Part shown: positions 48,643 through 60,642 of the stretch, in pieces | Position numbering within the stretch: the first letter of the stretch is position 1 | Layout of the letters: every line of letters begins with the position of its first letter | Source of the DNA: Candidatus Rhodobacter oscarellae | GTDB lineage: Bacteria > Pseudomonadota > Alphaproteobacteria > Rhodobacterales > Rhodobacteraceae | Assembly: GCF_001078595.1 (NCBI RefSeq) | Contig: NZ_LFTY01000002.1 | Span: forward strand, 2,723,773-2,787,772 | Length of the DNA: 64,000 nucleotides | Direction: 5' to 3' | The notes under the pieces: generated by a model | What the model saw: the letters and a program-made list of their open reading frames with translations, nothing else | Databases searched by the model: none | Told to the model about the DNA's origin: nothing | Translations under genes and position numbers: made by a program

Positions 48643-49491
48643 GCCCTTCACGTCGCCGCCGGTGCATTGATCATGTGCGGCAGACGCTTGGCGTATCCGA
48701 GCGCCGCGCCTGCCGCACATTGGGACAGCACCGCTCGACCCAACGCAAGGTTCCAACTGGCCGGTCCGATGAGGAGCTGTTGACCGAGGATATCATCGAG
48801 CTTGCCCGAAAGTTTGGGCGGTACGGGTATCGCATGGTCACTGGCTTGCTCAACAACTCGGGCTGGTATGTGAACCACAAACGGGTTGAACGGATATGGC
48901 GACGTGAGGGGCTGAAGGTCCCGCAAAAACAGACAAGGAAGGGGCGGCTCTGGCTGAACGACGGTTCCTGTGTGCGGCTTCGGCCAGAACGACCGAACCA
49001 CGTCTGGTCCTATGACTTCGTTCAGGACCGGACCCATGACGGGCGTGCGTATCGCACACTCAACATCATCGACGAGTTCACCAAGGAGGCTCTCATGATC
49101 CGTGTCGATCGCAAGCTCAATTCCATTGATGTCGTGGATGCCCTGACAGACCTGTTCATCTTGCGCGGACCGCCCGAGTTTATCAGGTCGGACAACGGAC
49201 CCGAATTCATCGCCCTGAAGGTCAGGGAATGGATCGGAGCGGTCGGTGCGAAGACGGCCTATATTGAGCCTGGATCACCCTGGGAGAACGGCTACTGCGA
49301 AAGCTTCAATGCCAGGTTCCGCGATGAGCTGCTCAATGGCGAAATCTTCTACTCGCTCAGAGAAGCTCAGATCCTGATCGAACCAATGGCGCATCCACTA
49401 CAACACCATCAGGCCACACCGCGCCCTGGGATACCGACCGCCCGCGCCAGAAAGCCTCGTCCCGATAGACCAGAGGCCCATCATGCACTAA
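48642..49491 (+). pseudogene. IS3-family transposase orfB, frameshifted
   Basis: The DDE integrase core is recognisable: first Asp in WSYDFVQDRTHDG, second in IRSDNGPEF, and Glu in SPWENGYCESFNARFRDE. At about 49383 an extra C in GAACCAATGG shifts the frame. The expected C-terminal QWRIHYNTIRPHRALGYRPP continues in the +1 frame to a TAA at 49489-49491. Without the indel the protein would have the normal IS3 orfB length. Read without correction, the frame would run to 49694. Confidence 0.85.
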
Positions 49492-49515
49492 CAATTGACC
49501 CGGACCACCCGATGG

Positions 49516-50302
49516 CGGCTCTCCAAATTCGACCTCCGATGTATGCCGCGGCCTGCATGGATGGCTGGGTTTTTTTGCTGCGCGGCGGTACCTTGATCTC
49601 CCTCATGCTGAATTTTTCGTTCTGTGAGCGCGCGCAGCGAGGGACCAAGACTTCTGCTGTGGGCTCAGAACAGCCATTGCGACGGGTCCCTTAAAGACCA
49701 AATCGGAAGCGAAAGAGGCCGCCCGCACAAACGGGGTCTTTGGCTTTCGAAACGATATCCGCCGAGCCGTCTGCCTTGGGCGCCTCGATCGGGCTCGGCC
49801 CTGGACCCCAAAGACCGAAAAGCGTCCTTATCGACGACACTCAGGAACCTTTTTGCGGGGGACATAACATCTGGCCGGTCCAGCGGCGCGGCGGGCATTT
49901 CCGAGGGGTTAACCCTGCGCGCGGTGGTTCCGGGGGTGGGGCCGCTCATCGGTGGGTTAACGCCTTATTTTGTTGAGGAATCGCCGGTCGGCAAAGCGTC
50001 GGCAAAACGTCGGCCTTGCGTATGGCACCTTGTCGGGCAAACCGGTGGATTAACGCAGCGCGCGGTGGGTTTGGGGTTTGTTTGGGATCTGAGGGGGGAG
50101 GCGTGGGTTCGCGCAGCTTACGTTTGCTGGAGGATGTTTGGGTACGGCTATTAAGGGTGGTGGGCACATTGCCCACCCTACGCTTGCTTAGATGGCCGCT
50201 CTGCGGACGAAGCGGACTTTGGCAAAGGTGAATGGAATCTCTGGCTTGGGGCATCGTTCGGCTTAAATTGCCTTTTGTCTACTCGCCTTGAGCTGTCCTA
50301 CA
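49516..50302. other. gene-poor region beyond the IS element
   Basis: No frame here has the look of a real gene. The segment holds several GGTTAAC or GGGTTAA motifs, a copy of the 11-bp phased repeat (annotated separately), and GC-rich sequence. It forms the junction between the island-like purine segment and the following genes. Confidence 0.5.
49950..50070 (+). repeat. intergenic repeat with 11-bp phased GTCGGC units, copy 2
   Basis: GTCGGC starts at 49987, 49998 and 50009, again 11 bases apart. It is preceded by GGGTTAACGCCTTATTT and followed by GTCGGGCAAACC, GGATTAACGCAGCGC and GCGGTGGGT. The same order is seen at 19.92-20.04 kb. The region is non-coding. Confidence 0.7.
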
Positions 50303-50659
50303 CTACTGCAGTTTCTCCAAGAGCTCTAACGGATCGACTTCCAAACCTGCCAGATCAGCATTCCAGTTGGGCCCGGTAAGTCCATTTTGCTCCGACAGAA
50401 AGGGGATAGTTCTCTCTAGAAAGTTCTTCAGCGATACTTCCTCAACGTCAGTATTAAACGCAAACTTGGGCTGCGCTCTTACGGCATATGCGCGATCAGA
50501 CCAGACGGGTACAACGAATGTATCCATATCGTCATTTGATGCGCACGTGACGGGCAAGTCTCTATCCGTTTCAACAACAAGCCAAACTGACTTACTCTCT
50601 AACACCCTTTGAACAAAACGGTGGTATGCCGCGATACTATCTGCGCTGTTGATAATCAT
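50303..50659 (-). CDS. DUF2750 domain-containing protein
   Basis: This 118-aa protein has the layout of DUF2750: a helical N terminus (SADSIAAYHRFVQRVLESKSVWLVV), a VVPVWSDRAYAVRAQP strand-loop, and VSLKNFLERTIPFLSE. The C terminus LEVDPLELLEKL closes the domain. The function is unknown. The longer frame to 50731 adds residues outside the domain, so I prefer ATG 50659, although no strong ribosome-binding site is seen at either. The gene is notably AT-richer than its neighbours, suggesting acquisition. Confidence 0.65.
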   Translation of the reverse strand: MIINSADSIAAYHRFVQRVLESKSVWLVVETDRDLPVTCASNDDMDTFVVPVWSDRAYAVRAQPKFAFNTDVEEVSLKNFLERTIPFLSEQNGLTGPNWNADLAGLEVDPLELLEKLQ

Positions 50660-51556
50660 TTTTGACCATAAGGTACTTCTGAAGTCGGTTCTGAAAACGA
50701 CATTGGTGAAGTCGCAGCAAAAGGTCAACATGGGCTCTTCGCGGCCATGCGGTCGAGCAGCACATGGATTGCCGTAACATTAGAAGCCGCTGTTGACGGC
50801 CCAAACCAGCCGCTCACCGAGGCACTCGGACGCTGCGGGCGCAGCCCGCATTGCCGCCGTTCGCTGCGGACGCGAAATCAAGACGACGGCGAACTGGTAG
50901 TCTGCGGACTTTTCCGACCTTGAATTTTCGCCCTTCGTCAATGCAGCATCTGTTCGCGGATGCAGCGGGCTGGTTTCTGCGGTGCGTGACGTTTCCCGTT
51001 TGCAGTCATTCATACGGGTTCAAATTGGATAAATCCAAACCAACATTTCGCTGCGGTCACGATGGACTGACAAGACGCGGACAAGGGCGACATTGGCGTT
51101 TCGTCCGCTTTGGAACTCGAAAACAACCAAGGGCTGATTGAGGCCACAATTGGTGCTTGTTGGGCTGAACAGATCCCTAGAATTGTTAAAACTCAGGCGG
51201 TCAGCCTTCCATGGCCGTCGTCAATCCCAAGCCGATCCTTGATCGCCAGCGCAACAAGCCGCTGTGACGCTATCCTTGGGTGCGGCATCTCTGGAATGAG
51301 CCCTTCTGCACCGTAGCGATCAAGATACTCTTGGTGATTGAGGACGTGGACGAGGTGACCGCCGCATGGGATAAAGCGCTTTCCGACGCCGGCTAACCCG
51401 TACGGCGGTTCCCTCAACTTGCTCAGGTAAGCCAATCAATGCGCATACCGGCGCCGAGGTTTCGCCACATTTCGAACCAAAATCAAACGGGACCGGGGCC
51501 CGCCGATGGGCGCCCCTTGGAAACGAAGTTTTGCTCGGAATGTGGGTGCCTTAGGA
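50660..51556. other. gene-poor region upstream of the kinase cluster
   Basis: No well-supported gene is seen in about 900 bases. A 7-bp hairpin (TGCGGGC/GCCCGCA) lies at 50834-50850. A short plus-strand frame ending near 51393 (LVIEDVDEVTAAWDKALSDAG) resembles the end of a VOC/glyoxalase-type protein and may be a gene remnant. The promoter of the kinase cluster should lie in the last 150 bases. Confidence 0.4.
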
Positions 51557-52822
51557 ATGAACATCGTCGCACGCTCTCCACGGTTGGTTCAGGAAGACCT
51601 CGCAGAGGACGCCCTCCGCGCGGGCGATCTTCTGTTGCAGGGCCAGTACCGGATCGAGCAGTTCCTCGGCGCGGGCGGCTTTGGCATCACCTACCGGGCG
51701 CGCGACTGCCTGGATCGTGGGGTGGTGATCAAGGAGTGCTTCCCCAACTCGATCTGCAGACGCTCCGACAAACTTGTGCGCACGCGCTCGCGGAAGCTGC
51801 AGACGACCTTCGAGGCGATTGTGCGCGACTTTGGGATGGAGGCCCGCCGCATGGCGCGCCTGGTGCATCCCAACATCGTCGGCGTGCACCAGGTGTTCGA
51901 AGAGAACGGCACCGCCTATATGGCGCTGGACATGGTGCCAGGCCGCAACCTCTTGGACATCGTCGAGAGCGACCCCGAGGCGCTGTCGCCTGACGATATC
52001 CAGGCCGTCCTGCGGCAGCTCTTGGACGCGGTGGCCTATCTTCATGACCGCAACATCCTGCACCGGGACATCTCGCCCGATAACGTCCTGATCGACCCAA
52101 ACGGCACCGCGGTGCTGATCGATTTCGGCGCCGCGCACGAGCTCGCGGCCCGCGCCGACGCGCTGGGGACCGAGCTGCATATGGTGAAGGATGGCTACTC
52201 GCCGCAGGAGTTCTACGTGCAAAACGGCGCGCATAGCCCGTCCAGCGATCTCTACTCACTCGCGGCGACGTTCTATCATGTGATCACTGGCCAGGCGCCG
52301 CCCGACAGCCAAACTCGGCTGGCGGCGATCGCGGCCAACAAGCCCGACCCGCTGGAGCCGATCCCCGCGCGCTCCGGCCCCTACGACCGGTACTTCCTAC
52401 AGGCGATCCATCGCGCTCTGGAGGTCTTCGAAAGCGACAGGCTGGCGACCGCGCGGGACTGGCTGCAGCTGATCGAAGAATCGCTGCGGCAGGCCGCGCT
52501 GGTCGAGCAGGCGCGACAGGACACCCTGATCGACGAGACCATCGAGGCTTTGACCCGCGAGACAAACGCCGCCATCGCTAAAGCGATCGAGGCGCAGGCG
52601 CAAAAGCGGCAAGAGGAGGCACGCGCCGCCGAAGAGAAGGCAAAGGCCGAAAAGGCCCGCAAGCTTAAGCGCGACGCCATGACTGCAAAGCTTGAGGACC
52701 CTGGCGACGCTGCAGAAGAGCCGCATCCGTCTCGGCCCAAGCGGCGGCGCCCAGGGCGGCCCCCTCGACCCGAGAAGCCGGTCGACCTGGCAACCTGGAC
52801 CCCAGAAACCAAGCAACACTAA
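51557..52822 (+). CDS. eukaryotic-type Ser/Thr protein kinase
   Basis: This 421-aa kinase is complete. It has a glycine-rich loop LGAGGFGITY (residues 38-47), ATP-binding Lys59 in VVIKECFP, catalytic HRDISPDN (Asp171), LIDFG (Asp189), and the GYSPQEFY segment in place of APE. After about residue 325 comes a long charged coiled-coil (EARAAEEKAKAEKARKLKRD), then a basic Pro/Arg-rich tail. There is no membrane segment. It heads an eight-gene plus-strand cluster with an FHA protein and PP2C phosphatase. Together they form a phosphorylation switch, probably acting on the cluster's GTPases. Start 51557 is chosen at the first ATG of the kinase frame with conserved character; its ribosome-binding site is weak. 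Confidence 0.9.
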   Translation: MNIVARSPRLVQEDLAEDALRAGDLLLQGQYRIEQFLGAGGFGITYRARDCLDRGVVIKECFPNSICRRSDKLVRTRSRKLQTTFEAIVRDFGMEARRMARLVHPNIVGVHQVFEENGTAYMALDMVPGRNLLDIVESDPEALSPDDIQAVLRQLLDAVAYLHDRNILHRDISPDNVLIDPNGTAVLIDFGAAHELAARADALGTELHMVKDGYSPQEFYVQNGAHSPSSDLYSLAATFYHVITGQAPPDSQTRLAAIAANKPDPLEPIPARSGPYDRYFLQAIHRALEVFESDRLATARDWLQLIEESLRQAALVEQARQDTLIDETIEALTRETNAAIAKAIEAQAQKRQEEARAAEEKAKAEKARKLKRDAMTAKLEDPGDAAEEPHPSRPKRRRPGRPPRPEKPVDLATWTPETKQH

Positions 52823-52855
52823 CAGGCAACAAGAACGAGAGGCGGCAGGAGTTCA

Positions 52856-53713
52856 ATGCGATTACTGAGTGAGATGATTGCCCGGACGACATCTGGTAAA
52901 GAGGATATGCAGCGCGAGCACCCTGAGGGGGTCGAAACCGGGCCCGCGGCCGACATGCCCGCCGTTGAGATAGGTGAGCACGACCGCGCCGCGCCGGATC
53001 AGTTCCCCGTCTTTGACAGCCCAGACGACCCCGACGCGGCCTTTGAGGACGCGCGCGCAGACCCGCCCCCGCTGGTGCTGACCACTCCGGCTGAAGATCC
53101 GCCCCCGCTGGTGCTGACCACACCGGCCGAAGACCCGCCCCAGCCTCAATCCACGCAGGATGCTTTCGACGCGAAACGCATGATGGCGCAGGAAGCCCTG
53201 AAGATGCTCAAGGAGCGCGCCGTCTCGGACGTGCACGAGGTCGAGCAGGGGCGCCAAAAGACCCGACTCTTGGGGTTCGGCGCCGCGGCGCCGGGAGAGG
53301 GCGACATCTTCGGCAACGCGGCCCCAGAGCAGGCCACGCCGTCAAACGCGGGTGTGAAATTTCCCGTCGGCTGGCTGGTGGTGACAGGTGGCCCGGGCGC
53401 TGGCGCGTCCTTTTCTCTGCAGGAGGGGGCCGCGCAGATCGGCCGCGGGCATGACCAGGCCATATCGCTAGATTTCGGTGACACGGCGATCTCGCGCGAG
53501 AACCACGCCGCGGTCGCCTATGACAGAGAATTGAACGCCTTCTACCTGGGCCATGGCGGCAAGACCAACATCGTGCGGCTGAACAACAAACCGGTCCTGA
53601 GCACCGAGGAACTCGCCTCGGGTGATGAGATCCGAATTGGAGAGACAACGCTGCGCTTCGTTGCCCTATGCGGCGAGGGTTTCACCTGGGCACCCGGCCA
53701 AGACCACGAGTAG
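52856..53713 (+). CDS. FHA domain protein with a Pro-rich N-terminal region
   Basis: This 285-aa protein has a C-terminal FHA domain at about residues 172-275. Phosphothreonine-binding positions are visible in AAQIGRGHDQAI (Gly-Arg) and AISRENHAAV (Ser, Asn-His). The N-terminal half is disordered, acidic and Pro-rich, with two exact 12-residue copies (DPPPLVLTTPAE) near residues 69-92. These contain adjacent threonines that could be kinase targets. It lies 33 bases after the kinase, and the phosphatase gene follows. It probably acts as the adaptor that reads kinase marks on partners. Confidence 0.88.
   Translation: MRLLSEMIARTTSGKEDMQREHPEGVETGPAADMPAVEIGEHDRAAPDQFPVFDSPDDPDAAFEDARADPPPLVLTTPAEDPPPLVLTTPAEDPPQPQSTQDAFDAKRMMAQEALKMLKERAVSDVHEVEQGRQKTRLLGFGAAAPGEGDIFGNAAPEQATPSNAGVKFPVGWLVVTGGPGAGASFSLQEGAAQIGRGHDQAISLDFGDTAISRENHAAVAYDRELNAFYLGHGGKTNIVRLNNKPVLSTEELASGDEIRIGETTLRFVALCGEGFTWAPGQDHE
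53060..53131 (+). repeat. 36-bp tandem repeat within the FHA gene
   Basis: Two in-frame 36-base units (53060-53095 and 53096-53131) differ at only a few positions and encode two identical copies of DPPPLVLTTPAE. A partial third unit (DPPQ) follows. This is a recent in-frame duplication in the disordered segment. Confidence 0.85.
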
Positions 53714-53717
53714 CCCC

Positions 53718-54659
53718 TTGTTTGAGCGCGCCAGATTTCAGATCGATGCAGCCGTCGCAATCAACAAGGGCAAGCGAGAATTCCAAGAAGACGCCGTTCT
53801 GGCGGACTTCGCCATCGGAAGCCGCTTGGGCATTGTCGTACTTGCCGATGGGATGGGCGGCCACAACGCGGGCGACGTCGCAAGCACCCTGGTGACAACA
53901 GAGGTGTTTCGCGAACTCCGATACACGACACGTTTCATGCTCAGGGACCCCGCGAGCATTCCGGGGCGGCTCTTGTCGGCGGCGCAGAAGGTGAATGGCT
54001 ACCTCAAGCGGTACATCTCCGAGAACCCAAACTGCGAGGGCATGGGCTGCACGCTGGTGATCGCGGTCCAAACGGGGAAGGATCTCTTTTGGCTGTCGGT
54101 TGGCGACTCGCCGGTGTTCCTGCTGCGGGACGGCAAGATGACCCGGCTGAACGAAGAGCACTCCCTCGCGCCCCAGATCGACTACCTGGCGCAGCAGGGG
54201 GTCTTGACGCCCGAGCAGGCCAGGACCCACCCCGACCGCTCCGTTCTGACCTCCGCCATCAACGGCCAAGAGATTCGCTATGTGGACTGCTCGGACGCGC
54301 CCTTTTCGCTGAAGAACGGCGACGCCTTGATCGTCGCCAGCGACGGGCTTTGCTCGCTGAAGCCCTCGGAAATCGCGCGCGTGATCCGCGAGAACGCCGA
54401 CAGGACGTGCGCCAAGGCCTCCGAGAAGGTGCTTAGCGCGATTCGAATGGCGGACTGCCCGGACCAGGACAATGTGTGCTTTGCGCTTATGAAGGTCTCG
54501 GACGAACGGGCCGATGAACAGATGCGCATCAATGAAATTCGCGCCGCCAACGCACTGCCACTGATGGCTGACAATGGCGCCACAGAGGCACAACCGAAGA
54601 AGCCCATGCGACAACTCACACGCATCCTGCGCGCCGTCAGCCGGACCCCGAATCCATGA
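53718..54659 (+). CDS. PP2C-family Ser/Thr protein phosphatase
   Basis: This 313-aa phosphatase has all metal-site motifs: AINKGKREFQEDAVLADF, the LADGMGGHNAGDVAS loop, VGDSPVFLLRDG, IVASDGLCSL and DQDNVCFAL. It would reverse phosphorylation by the neighbouring kinase. No ATG is placed well. I use TTG 53718, four bases after the FHA stop, because the conserved domain starts within ten residues of it. A GTG at 53622 would overlap the FHA gene by 92 bases. The C terminus (PKKPMRQLTRILRAVSRTP) is basic. Confidence 0.88.
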   Translation: MFERARFQIDAAVAINKGKREFQEDAVLADFAIGSRLGIVVLADGMGGHNAGDVASTLVTTEVFRELRYTTRFMLRDPASIPGRLLSAAQKVNGYLKRYISENPNCEGMGCTLVIAVQTGKDLFWLSVGDSPVFLLRDGKMTRLNEEHSLAPQIDYLAQQGVLTPEQARTHPDRSVLTSAINGQEIRYVDCSDAPFSLKNGDALIVASDGLCSLKPSEIARVIRENADRTCAKASEKVLSAIRMADCPDQDNVCFALMKVSDERADEQMRINEIRAANALPLMADNGATEAQPKKPMRQLTRILRAVSRTPNP

Positions 54660-55687
54660 CCAGAGCCAGCGTTGAACAGATTGTAGACCAGCTTGCCGAG
54701 CTTTTGCAGTCAAAGGCTACGCCTGCGGGCGCGCGCCCCACGGCGGAGCGGTTGATCGAGCGCTTGACGTCTCCGGTTCGGGTTGCGCTTGCGGGCGATC
54801 CCGGCGTTGGCAAAACGCTGCTTTACCAGACCTTCTCGGCGATCCAAACCGCGACCGGGATCGCACCCAACATCGTCTTTGTGGACACCAAACCCGGGTC
54901 CAGTGCCGAGAGCTGGGCCGACGTGCTGACCCAAACTGACATGGTGATCTGGCTTGCCGCCAGCGGCTTGGCCTCGGCGCTCGACAGCTGGCAGGACCTC
55001 CCAGCAGAGCTCACGCGGCACGCGTTCCTGGTGATCAATCAAAGGCCCGGCGAAGACGCGCCAAGTCAGGAGGCGCTCGCGGCCTTCCAGCGCCTGGGGT
55101 TCAACGCGGCCTTCTCGTTGAATGTTTTGCGCGAGCACTCCCGGATTGGCGAACAAACGTCGGACCTCTTAGAGCCGAACGACTTTGAGAGGTTGCTCTC
55201 GGCCTTGCATTCCTACGTGGACGCGGGATGCCAGGCCGACATAGACGGCGCGCTTTTATTCCTGCAGCGCTACTTCAAGATGCGTCGCCGCCCCGTCGAT
55301 ATGACCCAGACCGCGCCTGCCGCAGCAAAGCACCAAGAGCCCGCCCGCCCCAAGACACAGACAACAGAGGCCCCGGTGAAGGCGCCACCGCCCGAGCAGG
55401 TTTGTACCGCCGCCATATCGAAAGCGCTCTCCGGTCGCGTGGCCTCCCTAAAATCGCTCGAACCTGACATTGACGGCCATCAGGATCGCGTCATTCAGCA
55501 CTATCTGGACACGCTGGAGGCGCTCGCAGAGGACCGGGCGCTGCCCGGCGATTTGGACGGCCACATCCAGCAGACCCAGGATCTGGTGATGCTGCTGCAA
55601 CTGGAAAACACCGAAAACGCCGCGATCGAGGCCACGCTCGCCATGATCCAGCTCAAACGCCACGTCGTGTCTTTAAAAGTCGCCTAA
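54656..55687 (+). CDS. P-loop protein, degenerate GTPase-like, part of the kinase/dynamin cluster
   Basis: This 343-aa protein has a Walker A motif GDPGVGKTLLY near residue 48 inside VRVALAGDPGVGKT. A candidate switch (VFVDTKPG) and a candidate base-recognition loop (LVINQRPGED) follow. The latter two deviate from DxxG and NKxD, so nucleotide specificity is uncertain. A Pro/Ala-rich linker at about residues 220-250 leads to a helical C-terminal domain. The start overlaps the phosphatase stop by four bases. I know no characterised homologue. Confidence 0.65.
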   Translation: MTRASVEQIVDQLAELLQSKATPAGARPTAERLIERLTSPVRVALAGDPGVGKTLLYQTFSAIQTATGIAPNIVFVDTKPGSSAESWADVLTQTDMVIWLAASGLASALDSWQDLPAELTRHAFLVINQRPGEDAPSQEALAAFQRLGFNAAFSLNVLREHSRIGEQTSDLLEPNDFERLLSALHSYVDAGCQADIDGALLFLQRYFKMRRRPVDMTQTAPAAAKHQEPARPKTQTTEAPVKAPPPEQVCTAAISKALSGRVASLKSLEPDIDGHQDRVIQHYLDTLEALAEDRALPGDLDGHIQQTQDLVMLLQLENTENAAIEATLAMIQLKRHVVSLKVA

Positions 55688-55868
55688 AACCCTGCGTTCA
55701 TTTGCGGGTTTCAGGCCCGCATTTGCCCCGCAGCGACGCAGAATTGCCCAATTGCCTGGCCATGTTTCGACAGCGGCAAGCGGAATGCTCCCCAGCATGC
55801 GCCCGCGCCGCCCAGCCGCCCCCGAGTGCCGCTTGGACCCTGCACGCGCACCGACTTGATAGGTCAAG

Positions 55869-57929
55869 ATGAACGCAAAAGCCAAATTCGAAAAGCCACA
55901 GCCTTCCGTATCCCGGGGGTATGAAAAGCTGGTGCATGACAATTTCGCGCCCCTCGACGCGCTTCGGGCGCAACGCGACGACCTGATGTCGGTCCTGCAG
56001 ACCTTACGGGCCACGGGCGGGGCGGCCATCGGCGCCAAGGCCAAAACGCTGCAGGGCAAGCTGACCGCAGCGGAACCCTCGATCACGATGATCGGCCAGG
56101 TAAAGGCGGGCAAGACGTCGCTGGTCAACGCGATGGTAGGCTGGCCGGGATTGCTGCCAGCGGATGTGAACCCATGGACCTCGGTTGTAACGTCCCTGCA
56201 CCTGACCCCTGATACGCTTATACGCGACACGCAGGCAGAGTTCCGCTTCTTTGAGAAGGCCGAGTGGGACCGGCTCGTCACCAATGGCGGGCGGGTCGGC
56301 GAGATCGCGGGCCGCGCGGGCTCGGAAAGCGAGGCCGAGAAGGTCCGCCAGCAGGTCGAGGCGATGCAGGAGAAGTCACGCCGCAGGCTGGGCCGCAAAT
56401 ACGAGCTGCTGCTGGGCCAAAGCCACGATTACGGGACTTTCGACAGTAGCTTGATCGAGCGCTACGTTTGCCTCGGCGACGCATTCGACTCGCAGACGGA
56501 TGCAACGCGCGCCAACGGACGTTTTGCCGACATCACCAAATCCGCCGATCTCTACCTAGAGCGGCCCGGCCTGCCGATGAACCTCGCCATCCGTGACACC
56601 CCCGGCGTAAACGACACCTTCATGGTGCGGGAGCAGATCACCATCCGCGCGATCCGCGACAGCCGCATCTGCGTGGTGGTCCTGTCGGCGCATCAGGCGT
56701 TGTCGACGGTGGATATGGCCCTAATCCGCTTGATTTCTAACGTGGACGCGCGCCAAGTCGTGATTTTCGTTAACCGCATCGACGAGCTGTCTGACCCCGG
56801 CAATCAAGTGCCCGAGATCAAGGCGAGCATCGAGCGCACCCTGCGGGATCTCAACGGCACGAAGGACTTTGAGATCGTTTTTGGCAGCGCGCATTGGGCG
56901 ACCGCCGCCCTGCAGACGGACGCCGTGCCGCTGACGCAGGACGCGATTGCGTCGCTCAAGAACTGGGGCACCGCGCATAGGGGCAAATTCCCAGGGCTTA
57001 CCGAGCACGACAAGATCCTTTGGAAGCTCTCGGGAGTGCCCGAGCTTTTCGAGGCCATCTCGCGGCGCATCGCCGCGGGTCCTGGCCAAGAGGCACTCGA
57101 TCAGGTTGCGCGGCGCGCACAGAACCTCGCCTACGAGCTAAAGTCCGCCATGCGCGCACCGACGCAATCCGCGCCGACAGAGGCCTCGATCTCGCCCGAC
57201 GAAGCCATGGCACAGCTTGAGAAGCTGCGGTCCGACGGAGGCGCTGTGTTGCAGGGCGTGTTGGATGAGCACCTGGCAGATTTCGAGACCCGAATGCAAA
57301 GCGTTCACAGGAACTTCCTGTCCCGCGCCACAGCGGCCCTGGTGACTCATCTCGACGCCCACGGCGAGGACGTGGTCTGGTCCTACGACCCGACCGGGCT
57401 GCGTGTACTCCTGCGCTCGGCCTATCAGCTCTTTGCAAAGCGCGCCGTCCAAAACGCCAAAGAGGCGTTCGCGCGCGCGGCTCAAGAGGCCACCGCGCTT
57501 TGCCGCAACAGCGGTGTCGCTCGGGACGCAGTCTTCAAGATCACCCCGCCGGAGCCAGAAAAACCCGCGCCGCCGGTGATCCTCGGGCAAACGATCGTGC
57601 TCGATCTCAAAAGCAACTGGTGGTCGAAATGGTGGCGGCGCAGACGCGGGCACAGCGCGTTTTCTGATGAGTTCTATGAGCTGGTGAAGGCAGAGTCGTT
57701 GCCCATCCTAGAAGGGCTCAGCCGTGAATACGCCGAGCCGCTGCGCGCTGCGCTGCTCACACAGTTCTCCGAGTTCCTACAGGAACAGCACGAGGCACTG
57801 CAGCGCATGGCGCGCGCCGACCCCGCTATGGATCCACAAAGAGACACCGGGCAAGCGCGCCAGGACCAGCCACGCAGCACCCAAGACATCGACAGGTCGC
57901 TCGAGATCTTGAGCACCATGGTCGCCTGA
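55869..57929 (+). CDS. dynamin-like large GTPase
   Basis: This 686-aa protein has a dynamin-family GTPase domain: P-loop GQVKAGKTSLVNAM (residues 76-89), DTPGVND near 242 and base-recognition NRID near 302. A long helical region from about 430 probably forms the stalk. Near residues 580-592 lies SNWWSKWWRRRRG, an aromatic and basic patch well suited to inserting into a membrane surface. Bacterial dynamin-like proteins remodel or protect membranes. The role here is unknown, but the kinase, phosphatase and FHA neighbours suggest phospho-control. A 181-bp gap separates it from the P-loop gene. Confidence 0.85.
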   Translation: MNAKAKFEKPQPSVSRGYEKLVHDNFAPLDALRAQRDDLMSVLQTLRATGGAAIGAKAKTLQGKLTAAEPSITMIGQVKAGKTSLVNAMVGWPGLLPADVNPWTSVVTSLHLTPDTLIRDTQAEFRFFEKAEWDRLVTNGGRVGEIAGRAGSESEAEKVRQQVEAMQEKSRRRLGRKYELLLGQSHDYGTFDSSLIERYVCLGDAFDSQTDATRANGRFADITKSADLYLERPGLPMNLAIRDTPGVNDTFMVREQITIRAIRDSRICVVVLSAHQALSTVDMALIRLISNVDARQVVIFVNRIDELSDPGNQVPEIKASIERTLRDLNGTKDFEIVFGSAHWATAALQTDAVPLTQDAIASLKNWGTAHRGKFPGLTEHDKILWKLSGVPELFEAISRRIAAGPGQEALDQVARRAQNLAYELKSAMRAPTQSAPTEASISPDEAMAQLEKLRSDGGAVLQGVLDEHLADFETRMQSVHRNFLSRATAALVTHLDAHGEDVVWSYDPTGLRVLLRSAYQLFAKRAVQNAKEAFARAAQEATALCRNSGVARDAVFKITPPEPEKPAPPVILGQTIVLDLKSNWWSKWWRRRRGHSAFSDEFYELVKAESLPILEGLSREYAEPLRAALLTQFSEFLQEQHEALQRMARADPAMDPQRDTGQARQDQPRSTQDIDRSLEILSTMVA

Positions 57930-57962
57930 CGCGCCGCCCCGCCCCCATTGGATGAGGTTTTC

Positions 57963-58871
57963 ATGCCCCCGCACCCCCAGTCATTCTTCCCCCCAGATCC
58001 CAGTAAGGCACGCGCGCCAGGTCGACCCCGCCTGGCGATCATGGGGGAGTTCAGCGCGGGCAAGAGTACGCTGACGAACATGCTCATCGGCCGCAACGCG
58101 CTGCCCACAAAGGTCACGGCCACGCAATTGCCGCCAGTGTGGATCTCGCACGGCGCGGACGCTCCCTATTTCCGCAGCACCGAAGGCGAGGATTGCCCCT
58201 TTGACACCAATGAGATCGACCAGATCTCGCCGCATGACACCGAATACATCCGCATCTTCCATAAGGCAGACACTCTGGAGCTCTTTGACATCATCGACAT
58301 GCCGGGGATCTCGGACCCCAACATCCCCGCCGAGGTCTGGGAGCGGGTCATGGAATTCGCCGACGCGGCGATCTGGTGCACCCACGCGACGCAGGCTTGG
58401 CGGCAGAGCGAGGCCGCCGTTTGGGAGGCCTATTCCGAGGCGCTGGCCGACAAGAGCCTGCTTCTGGTCACGCGCTTTGACAAGATCCTGAGCGACAGCG
58501 ACCGCCGCCGCGTGCTGCAACGCATGCAGACCGAGGCGGGGGATATGTTTCGCGCGATCCTGCCAATCTCGCTGACGCAGGCGCTTGACGCCGAGAACGA
58601 CTTTGCGCTTTGGGAGAAAAGCGGCGCCGCGGAGTTTGTATCCGCGCTGGTGGGCCTGTCTCGCGAGCTATCAGCGGAGGGGACTGACGCGGGCGGAACC
58701 GATCCGAGCACGACCGACGTGGAGAACCAGAGAGTGGCTGGGGCTGAGGCTGAGACCGTGACGCCGCTCAATCGGCGGCCCGCGCCACCGGTTTCCGAGG
58801 GCGCCGTGATGCCGCGCCGCGTGCAGTCCGGGCCACGCTACCGGGAGCGACCGGTGCGCCCCCCGGCCTAG
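57963..58871 (+). CDS. small dynamin-like GTPase
   Basis: This 302-aa GTPase has P-loop GEFSAGKSTLTNML (residues 28-41), switch DMPGISDP near 113 and TRFDK near 172. The sequence between them (NALPTKVTATQLPPVWI) matches the dynamin-family pattern of a threonine-containing switch I. It lacks a long stalk and ends in a Pro/Arg-rich disordered tail. Bacterial dynamins often come as adjacent large and small partners that hetero-oligomerise. ATG 57963 follows GATGAGG. A TTG at 57948 is less likely. Confidence 0.83.
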   Translation: MPPHPQSFFPPDPSKARAPGRPRLAIMGEFSAGKSTLTNMLIGRNALPTKVTATQLPPVWISHGADAPYFRSTEGEDCPFDTNEIDQISPHDTEYIRIFHKADTLELFDIIDMPGISDPNIPAEVWERVMEFADAAIWCTHATQAWRQSEAAVWEAYSEALADKSLLLVTRFDKILSDSDRRRVLQRMQTEAGDMFRAILPISLTQALDAENDFALWEKSGAAEFVSALVGLSRELSAEGTDAGGTDPSTTDVENQRVAGAEAETVTPLNRRPAPPVSEGAVMPRRVQSGPRYRERPVRPPA

Positions 58872-58989
58872 GAGGCGCCCCTGCTTCCGCCTTGCCCCAA
58901 CGCTTAAAAAGACCATGCTTAGGAGATCATAAAGCAAATGCGGTTAAACCGCCGCTGGCGGGGATGGTCCGCTTTAAAACGGGTGTGAC

Positions 58990-59361
58990 TTGAGAATTGG
59001 CGAACTCTTGGACGAGCTGCGGAGCGCTTTGCCCGGCTGCGACCTGTGCGCCTATATCGATCTGGACGTCGCCTTGGTGATGTCGCTCAGCGCCCCGCAA
59101 AAGCCCCCGCAAGAGCAGCTGGACGCCCTAGCAGAGATGGCCTGCGTTCTTCTTCGCTCTAACCCCTGCCCTGCTGAGGGGGACCATGCGTCTGAAACCG
59201 AATTCACGACGTTTCTCACGCAAGACAGGTCCTACTTTTTGATGCGCTCCACCGGTGATCCGGGCGAGGTTATCTGTTGCAGATGCGGCGCGGATGTTGA
59301 CCCCGACGCGGTCGAAGCTGGGGCGCGGCTGACGCTCAAATGGGTTGGGGAGGCCGCATGA
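58990..59361 (+). CDS. small hypothetical protein, possible roadblock/LC7-like fold
   Basis: This 123-aa protein starts at a TTG (58990) with no clear ribosome-binding site. Its first 60 residues (LLDELRSALPGCDLCAYIDLDVALVMSL, then QLDALAEMACVLL) follow the helix-strand-strand-helix order of roadblock/LC7 proteins, which regulate small GTPases. A CCRCGADVD segment near residue 95 has clustered cysteines. The family is not recognised with certainty. The stop overlaps the next gene by four bases, so the two are coupled. Confidence 0.55.
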   Translation: MRIGELLDELRSALPGCDLCAYIDLDVALVMSLSAPQKPPQEQLDALAEMACVLLRSNPCPAEGDHASETEFTTFLTQDRSYFLMRSTGDPGEVICCRCGADVDPDAVEAGARLTLKWVGEAA

Positions 59362-60137
59362 CCGAACGCGGCGAACTCGGCATTCTGATTGACGTGCTTA
59401 TCGGCGAGGATGAGACGTCCCGGGGGTGGCGCAAGCTGACCGCGCAAGATGGCGAGGACCTGACCCACGCGCTCTTGCGCGACATCTCGCTCGCGATGCT
59501 CCCGGCGCGGCTGGTATACCAAAACACAAAGGGCCTTTCCCTTTGCATATTGGCCGGCAACCGGCGGCTTTGCTCGGTTGCAGAGGCACCATCGGAGTTT
59601 TGTGCGGATGTCGACATGTCTGTGGGCGTGGCACTTTCCGACACGCCAGAGCATATCGCGAAGGTCACAGAGCTGCTGCATGGCTTCTGCGCAACCTCCA
59701 CAGAGCTCTTGACGCGATCGGCGCTGCTTGGCGACTTCGACCCAAGGGGGCAGCAGGGCATCTCCCCTCAAGCCATCCAGGACCGGCTGTCGAAACGCGC
59801 CATGCAGGCTTCGCGCGATCCCACCGAAAGCCTTGCGGCCTTCCTGGCCCCGGTGATGGACAATGCAAGGACCTGGGTGATGACAGAGAACGACGCCGTT
59901 GTCGGCCACTCCGCTTCGGCACCCGACCATGCGCTGGTCCAATCGATTGCAACGTTGCGGTCGCTCCTAAGCGTTCCCGCCCAAGGGACCGGGCCGCAGC
60001 TGCTGGTGCATGGTCGGGCTGGCGCGGCGCGTCACGCCGCGGTGTTCGCGTGGTCCGAAGACTGGGTCTTTGGCGCCACGGATGTTGGCGGCCTCGGCAA
60101 AGACTACATTCAGTCCTGGCGCGCCGCGGGGCTTTAA
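59358..60137 (+). CDS. hypothetical protein, last gene of the kinase/dynamin cluster
   Basis: This 259-aa soluble protein has no recognisable catalytic motif. The N-terminal half (HALLRDISLAMLPARLVYQNT, LSLCILAGNRRLCSV) and C-terminal half (FLAPVMDNARTWVMTENDAVVGHS...AARHAAVFAWSEDWVFGATD) each look like alpha/beta roadblock-type units. It could be a two-domain relative of the preceding protein. Coupled translation (ATGA overlap) supports a complex of the two, perhaps acting on the GTPases. This is structural guesswork from residue patterns. Confidence 0.6.
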   Translation: MTERGELGILIDVLIGEDETSRGWRKLTAQDGEDLTHALLRDISLAMLPARLVYQNTKGLSLCILAGNRRLCSVAEAPSEFCADVDMSVGVALSDTPEHIAKVTELLHGFCATSTELLTRSALLGDFDPRGQQGISPQAIQDRLSKRAMQASRDPTESLAAFLAPVMDNARTWVMTENDAVVGHSASAPDHALVQSIATLRSLLSVPAQGTGPQLLVHGRAGAARHAAVFAWSEDWVFGATDVGGLGKDYIQSWRAAGL

Positions 60138-60213: not shown

Positions 60214-60642
60214 TTAACTGTGACCTGCTCCGCTTAGGGTCCGCCAATTTGGGTTAGCTCTGTTCAGGTTTTGGTCTTCTTCTGACCGGTTAGCATATTC
60301 CGCCGGTGTCATGCCAGCGAGGCTAAAATGGGGCCGGTGGTGGTTGAAGTCGGTGCGCCATGCTGCCACCAGATTTCGGGCCTGGCGCAGACTATCGAAC
60401 AGATGTTCATTCAAGCATTCATCCCTCATGCGTCCATTGAAAATTTCCACGAATCCGTTTTGCAGGGGCTTGCCGGGGGCGATGTAATGCCAATCGACCT
60501 TGCGATCTTCTTGCCATTTCAGGATCGCTTTTGAAGTCCGTTCAGTGCCATTATCGCTGACAACCAGACAGGGATAACCCCGCATCTCAGCGATCCGATC
60601 CAGTTCACGGGCCACACGCTCGCCTGAAGGGAAAAAGACCAA
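60214..60642 (-). pseudogene. IS3-family transposase orfB, 5'-truncated remnant
   Basis: Only the C-terminal part of an IS3-type transposase remains: [19 protein letters not shown], the second catalytic Asp in VVSDNGTE, Glu in [14 protein letters not shown] and the closing [17 protein letters not shown]. The terminal repeat TGACCTGCTCCGCTTAGGGT at 60221 marks the surviving IS end. Similarity stops upstream of SGERVAREL near 60632, where LacI-like sequence begins. This is a different IS3 subgroup from the element at 48-49 kb. Confidence 0.85.

Follow-up and report, generated by a model that had tools for sequence, protein, structure and literature searches.

This work concerns a group of eight adjacent genes in Candidatus Rhodobacter oscarellae, located in a stretch of 64,000 nucleotides of contig NZ_LFTY01000002.1 (positions 2,723,773 to 2,787,772 of the forward strand). 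The stretch is called the window below, and positions refer to it unless a locus is named. Eight neighbouring open reading frames (ORFs) are present on the plus strand at 51.5-60.1 kb, which confirms the gene composition given in a preliminary description of this DNA, and the identical order was found elsewhere. The working names are, in gene order, KIN, FHA, PP2C, PLOOP, DYN1, DYN2, RB1 and RB2. The genes, together with two short segments inside them, are the following:

51557..52822, plus strand: KIN, soluble Ser/Thr protein kinase (longest ORF from 51506; Pfam Pkinase, E 2.9e-33)
52856..53713, plus strand: FHA-domain protein (Pfam FHA, E 1.3e-7, residues 195-262)
53258..53278, plus strand: KTRLLGF motif (Thr136) in the FHA linker, candidate phosphothreonine site by motif conservation
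53718..54659, plus strand: PP2C-type Ser/Thr phosphatase (longest ORF from GTG 53622; Pfam PP2C_2, E 2.1e-12)
54656..55687, plus strand: PLOOP, degenerate P-loop protein, pseudo-GTPase paralogue of DYN2 by profile-profile match
55869..57929, plus strand: DYN1, dynamin-like GTPase with a helical region (Dynamin_N, E 1.7e-12)
57615..57647, plus strand: conserved Trp/Arg segment of DYN1, NWWSKWWRRRR, candidate membrane-inserting tip
57963..58871, plus strand: DYN2, short stalk-less dynamin-type GTPase (longest ORF from TTG 57948; Dynamin_N, E 9.8e-12)
58990..59361, plus strand: RB1, predicted roadblock/LC7-fold protein (AlphaFold model and Foldseek)
59358..60137, plus strand: RB2, two-domain protein with a C-terminal half that is roadblock-like in element order (AlphaFold model; weak structural matches)

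The Pfam assignments come from a library scan of the window proteins, in which Dynamin_N was matched by both the 686-residue DYN1 and the 307-residue DYN2. The same scan gave zero matches for RB1 and RB2, and sub-threshold P-loop matches alone for the 343-residue PLOOP. PP2C and PLOOP overlap by four bases (54656-54659), as do RB1 and RB2 (ATGA at 59358-59361), and the probable starts were refined to TTG 53718 for PP2C, ATG 57963 for DYN2 and ATG 59358 for RB2.

The conservation of this arrangement was surveyed with DYN1 at a threshold of E <1e-10 over 293 sampled genomes of the order Rhodobacterales. Relatives were found in 98 of these genomes and in 41 of the 114 genera, the genomes listed being all from one family, the Rhodobacteraceae. 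With E <1e-30, the DYN1 profile had no matches among ca 380 genomes of other alphaproteobacterial families. From the DYN1-bearing genomes 100 loci were taken and their genes labelled by profiles. The exact order KIN-FHA-PP2C-PLOOP-DYN1-DYN2-RB1-RB2 is present at 55 loci including the window (53 genomes, 23 genera), and 20 further loci keep most of it, some genes lacking there only because they were missed in gene calling. Chance cannot account for the same eight genes standing in the same order at 54 loci other than the window, and the co-occurrence of the kinase with the 686-residue dynamin, for which the preliminary description had called for a neighbourhood survey, is borne out: the genes are conserved together. 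The flanking genes (212 genes in 120 clusters) are common mainly within genera, which identifies the cassette itself as the unit of conservation. At one locus that is otherwise canonical, a gap of 1.6 kb separates DYN2 from RB1 (L032:13047-14650), and the best ORFs there are on the opposite strand. Plasmid copies occur in Leisingera, Ruegeria and Rhodobacter. In the public annotation they read kinase, FHA, PP2C, hypothetical, dynamin, dynamin, hypothetical, hypothetical, that is, the genes are labelled singly and three of the eight merely as hypothetical.

Within the 55 canonical loci, the G1, G3 and G4 motifs of DYN1 are present in every case, and for DYN2 the corresponding numbers are 55, 50 and 52. 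PLOOP, on the other hand, has G1 in 44 loci and a G3-like motif in 2. Its profile matches that of DYN2 over 212 columns (probability 99.8, E 1.6e-30), and it can therefore be assigned as a degenerate DYN2 paralogue, which agrees with the degenerate P-loop protein noticed earlier. The solved structure closest to the DYN1 profile is chain A of 5owv (E 5.9e-11), followed by Nostoc BDLP, and the alignment to 5owv_A extends past the G domain. For the DYN2 profile, the closest is chain C of the same entry (E 7e-19). We assume that 5owv is the Cj-DLP1/Cj-DLP2 complex from Campylobacter, and the different lengths of chains A and C (732 vs 614) imply that they are the two different partners. As judged from these profile matches, DYN1 and DYN2 each correspond to a different partner of the heterotypic dynamin pair of Campylobacter.

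It is important to point out that DYN2 (302-307 residues) stops shortly after the G domain and continues only in a low-complexity tail without a helical neck or trunk; this tail carries a PRRV motif in 53 of the 55 canonical orthologues. Both proteins are dynamin-like as previously proposed, according to the Dynamin_N matches given above, but the second one has no helical stalk, and the pair is better described as one dynamin-like protein plus one stalk-less dynamin-type GTPase. In DYN1, a WW..WW segment, usually followed by basic residues, is found in all 80 proteins from kinase-type loci with a single DYN1. This Trp/Arg segment is a candidate for a membrane-inserting tip.

Two PADLOC models, LeoA (E 1.3e-10) and LeoBC (E 2.3e-6), also match DYN1 with partial coverage. 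One option is that the pair promotes budding in a regulated release of membrane vesicles, similarly to LeoABC, as deletion of leoAB in E. coli lowers the vesicle cargo about two-fold (PMC4159319). However, the likeness to Leo goes no further than membership of the dynamin superfamily, and no kinase or roadblock protein is mentioned for Leo in that paper. We regard vesicle release as an improbable explanation of the cassette.

The first three genes constitute the writer, reader and eraser of the phospho-switch that the preliminary description had recognized, as identified by the Pkinase, FHA and PP2C_2 matches. The HRD and DFG motifs of the kinase and the DG[ML]G motif of the phosphatase are intact in 55 of 55 canonical loci, and PP2C also matches the NCBIfam Stp1 model below its cutoff (E 1.8e-39). 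According to a simple hydropathy scan, the window kinase has no transmembrane segment; at least one is predicted in 83 of the 145 labelled kinases. The FHA domain is located at the C-terminus of its protein, for which the nearest curated families are OdhI and FhaB, and it is preceded by a disordered Pro/Ala-rich linker. This N-terminal linker is of low complexity and variable among orthologues, except for the motif [KR]T[RK][LIVM][LIVM]GF, which is present in 52 of the 55 canonical linkers, the other three having QTRLLGF, QTRVLGF and RTRLLGH. The pattern TR.LG is found in 36 linkers, against an average of 0.18 occurrences after the linkers are shuffled. In the four Ruegeria-type FHA proteins inspected, KTTFLGF or KTTFLGL takes the place of KTRLLGF. 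The motif threonine of the window protein is residue 136 (codon 53261-53263). In OdhI, phosphorylation of an N-terminal threonine serves as a switch (PMC2784874), and we infer that the KTRLLGF threonine is a candidate phospho-acceptor, to be read by an FHA domain. The FHA gene of the window also contains a tandem 36-base repeat at 53059-53130, which encodes two copies of a unit DPPPLVLTTPAE. The TT motif of this repeat was considered as a general phosphosite and rejected, as it shows no enrichment over shuffles in relatives.

The same kinase-FHA-PP2C trio is known from the type VI secretion system (T6SS), whose control uses FHA binding to phosphothreonine (PMC3953482), and the module might for this reason be a stray T6SS threonine-phosphorylation cassette, PpkA-Fha-PppA. 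For this genome the suggestion is already refuted, since both TssK and VipB are absent from it. In the survey, TssK and DYN1 co-occur in 33 genomes vs 26 expected (p 0.07), TssK lies more than 40 kb away from DYN1 in all genomes that have both, and the FHA protein reaches 16 bits with the TagH model TIGR03354 (E 0.008), the cut-off being 120. The T6SS link was rejected on these grounds and can practically be dismissed; the earlier view of a module without tss structural genes is supported, and in the relatives, too, no T6SS locus is adjacent.

For the last two genes the evidence is structural. The AlphaFold model of RB1 (pLDDT 91.7) has the element order helix, two strands, helix, three strands, helix, and its best Foldseek match is 3kye, a Streptomyces roadblock protein (E 3.8e-8, TM-score 0.78-0.80), followed by Ragulator subunits and MglB. 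The predicted structure of RB1 is a roadblock/LC7 fold. In the model of RB2 (pLDDT 88) the C-terminal half follows the roadblock element order, and its structural matches are weak ones to roadblock and longin proteins (best E 1.4e-3, probability up to 1.0, TM-score of ca 0.2 over the whole chain). Of the two roadblock-like proteins that had been proposed, the first is thus supported by its predicted structure, while for the second the likeness is suggestive at most.

The resemblance of RB1 to MglB and to the Streptomyces protein, and the combination of kinase, roadblock protein and GTPase, which is the logic of the conservons, would fit a switch for polarity or envelope position, in which the roadblock proteins and GTPases set a pole or site, possibly for a polar flagellum. 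At loci of four genera, motB-flgE-flgK adjoins the module in differing orientation (L046, L048, L190, L192, L198, L199), which is a hint of a flagellar region or merely marks an insertion site. Against this, the GTPases match dynamin and Era-type models and have no Ras-like, MglA-type identity, most loci are away from flagellar genes, and polarity factors are not apparent in the module. This makes the polarity switch quite unlikely.

We have also considered loci in which the DYN1-DYN2 core stands beside other input genes. The DYN1 tree clusters these subtypes, and it splits the canonical ones into a clade with mainly soluble kinases (n=52, including the window) and one with mainly transmembrane kinases (n=28). 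Some loci contain two DYN1-DYN2 pairs. DYN1 occurs twice in the Ruegeria-type loci, together with a transmembrane kinase, and after these come genes for secreted proteins that match SBP_bac_3 weakly and have a LysM-like N-terminus (L111:17911-20000, L181, L127, L209). That these proteins are encoded with transmembrane kinases suggests an external ligand. At other loci RB1-RB2 are accompanied by an ABC-type ATPase, and the genes nearby include one for a dual-specificity phosphatase or for a fusion of ferredoxin, reductase and globin. The ATPase, fused to a weak DSP/PTP phosphatase-like region, follows RB2 (L120:9086-10303, L126:10906-12153, L045:4217-5449) and in L120 and L126 precedes DYN1, with intact phosphatase genes near these ATPase loci. 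The second fusion, of a 2Fe-2S ferredoxin, an FAD/NAD reductase, a bacterial globin and a C-terminal CxxC, lies near the dynamin genes of another subtype (L099:16011-17669, L045, L101, L104, L120, L126) and is a possible oxygen or nitric oxide input. As different sensors are plugged into one twin-GTPase core, this core probably serves several inputs as a single output that acts on membranes.

In four loci, a PAS/LOV protein with the motif G.NCRF[LM]QG and a small LC7-like protein replace the phospho-trio, the PAS/LOV gene coming directly after DYN1-DYN2 and the LC7-like gene (L122:12884-13429, L124:13739-14338, L171:7024-7566, L174:12902-13444). Between RB1 and this LC7-like protein the sequence-profile probability is 14. 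These loci possibly encode a light-controlled dynamin pair. At the Leisingera plasmid copies, genes for a biliverdin-producing heme oxygenase and an HWE histidine kinase adjoin KIN divergently (L214:7909-8472, L215:6088-6651). The LOV subtype, such phytochrome-linked neighbours, and the enrichment of the kinase-type subtype in genomes with reaction-centre genes (48/71 vs 71/222, p 2e-7), could indicate that the module as a whole manages light-related or photosynthetic membranes. However, at the genus level the association vanishes (21 genera with both vs 18.7 expected, p 0.43), so that the enrichment probably reflects shared ancestry, and reaction-centre genes are absent from this genome and from all 19 genomes with the Ruegeria-type subtype. 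Phototrophy was accordingly rejected as a functional clue, and the light-related role is very unlikely.

Taken together, the computations show a conserved cassette with intact catalytic motifs in the kinase, the phosphatase and the two GTPases, a stalk-less second partner, a degenerate paralogue, a roadblock fold and a conserved threonine motif. The reading that we favour, with about an even chance of being correct, is that a signal gates the dynamin pair of this eight-gene cassette, most likely for membrane tethering or remodelling. In such a mechanism, the kinase would respond to a signal by phosphorylating either a partner or the FHA protein itself, at the KTRLLGF threonine. Binding of this or another phosphothreonine by the FHA domain would then change a complex of FHA protein, pseudo-GTPase and roadblock proteins that holds DYN2. 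The roadblock proteins would act on DYN2 like MglB-type regulators, that is, as GTPase-activating proteins or scaffolds. Once released or loaded with GTP, DYN2 would partner DYN1, which would bind the membrane through its Trp/Arg segment and tether or reshape it, and PP2C would reset the system. The GTPases would in this way be under phosphorylation control, and the physiological output could be membrane protection, vesicle release or site selection. Several known cases serve as precedents. Cj-DLP1 and Cj-DLP2 tether liposomes and depend on each other for activity (PMC6104087); roadblock proteins regulate GTPases, as in the control of MglA, and in the conservon their gene has a kinase gene and a GTPase gene as neighbours (PMC4316618); a further precedent is the FHA binding in T6SS control described above.

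A number of points weigh against the proposed signal-gated pair. The roles of the module in membrane action, GTP hydrolysis and phosphorylation are computational predictions throughout. DYN2 has no stalk of the kind held by the Campylobacter partner, and the geometry of pairing may therefore differ. The Pfam roadblock model has no match in any of 26 RB1 members; being blind to RB1, this library could not have supplied the roadblock guess of the preliminary description, which was nevertheless right. Likewise, the sequence profiles of RB1 and RB2 gave nothing significant when compared with PDB chains, the roadblock likeness of RB2 is weak, and the choice of a partner GTPase for RB1 is a guess. 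Kinase, FHA and PP2C are missing from some of the subtypes. Finally, the KTRLLGF threonine could belong to a plain binding motif instead of being a phosphosite.

The surroundings of the cassette bear on a further explanation, namely protection against phages or membrane stress, in which the dynamin pair would strengthen the inner membrane or postpone lysis after damage that the kinase senses. Just upstream of the module is a gene for a DUF2750 protein (50303-50731, minus strand), outside the conserved cassette, and two insertion sequence (IS) elements flank the module as context outside the system:

48675..49694, plus strand: IS3-type transposase upstream of the module (rve and HTH_21 domains)
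60214..60642, minus strand: IS3-type transposase fragment downstream of the module (rve_3 domain)

A check for a composite transposon found no long flanking repeats around the module, and the IS elements therefore appear to be mere neighbours. A protective role draws on the patchy distribution of DYN1, the changing flanks, the plasmid copies and these IS elements; on the Leo matches of DYN1 and the resemblance of the kinase to the defence-linked mad6 and PD-T4-6, for which generic Ser/Thr kinases score too; and on Bacillus DynA, which is reported to delay phage lysis and protect membranes (PMC8844932). However, ordinary metabolic and transport genes prevail in the flanks, and no defence family is among the 25 commonest of 131 flank families (a count without a control set), which leaves a defence island unsupported. 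No relatives were found in phage records or viral contigs, and carriage by phages or prophages was rejected. A long operon strictly conserved in one family would also be unusual for a defence system. The phage or stress response suggested in the preliminary description is thus not supported by these results, and we hold protection to be unlikely.

How and when cells switch bacterial dynamins on is largely open, and the signal-gated pair, as read here, makes this regulation directly testable. In at least 23 genera the operon places a writer, a reader and an eraser of phosphorylation, together with a protein of a roadblock-fold regulator family, beside a dynamin pair. A precise target for mutation is Thr136 in the FHA protein, and the LOV-linked relatives may permit control of the dynamin pair by light.

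The preliminary description knew of no system with this composition. We also found no published description of the gene combination in the open-licence literature, a prior one in a subscription journal being possible. Among the closest known cases is that of Campylobacter jejuni Cj-DLP1/Cj-DLP2, where adjacent genes likewise encode two different dynamin-type GTPases. In contrast to that pair, DYN2 consists of a G domain and a short tail only, and the operon of the window also contains kinase, FHA, PP2C, pseudo-GTPase and roadblock genes; the part of the source at hand mentions none of these for Campylobacter (PMC6104087). LeoABC of E. coli is also a multi-gene dynamin locus, but the kinase and roadblock genes set the present cassette apart from it (PMC4159319). 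Bacillus subtilis DynA is a bacterial dynamin thought to guard the membrane; it differs from the module in being a single fused protein with two GTPases, with no phospho-switch or roadblock protein mentioned in the available part of the source (PMC8844932).

On the regulatory side, PpkA, Fha and PppA of the T6SS are a kinase, an FHA reader and a PP2C eraser encoded together (PMC3953482), whereas the present module has no T6SS structural genes, its output genes differ, and its FHA protein is outside the TagH/Fha1 family. OdhI and FhaB are the closest curated FHA families, and the N-terminal phosphothreonine switch described for OdhI can be compared with the candidate Thr136. To our knowledge, the KTRLLGF motif with its long disordered linker is not part of these families. 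The conservon CvnABCD and the MglA/MglB system resemble the module in joining a kinase, a roadblock protein and a GTPase in one transferable unit (PMC4316618), the difference being that the conservon has a histidine kinase and a Ras-like GTPase, and the module a Ser/Thr kinase and dynamin-type GTPases.

All parts of the cassette belong to known superfamilies, and the GTPase pair, too, is of a familiar type. New relative to the open-licence literature, where they have no counterpart, are the gene composition, the presence of a third, degenerate G-protein, the motif in the FHA protein and the exchange of inputs, and there is a fair chance that the cassette represents a new class. More specifically, interchangeable sensors (kinase/FHA/PP2C, a transmembrane kinase with secreted binding proteins, LOV, or an ABC-type ATPase) may control a common core of twin dynamins and roadblock proteins, with KTRLLGF as a new FHA phosphothreonine switch. 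This would be an undescribed modular signalling class and a bacterial counterpart of regulated dynamin action, a proposal that we tentatively place a little short of even chances.

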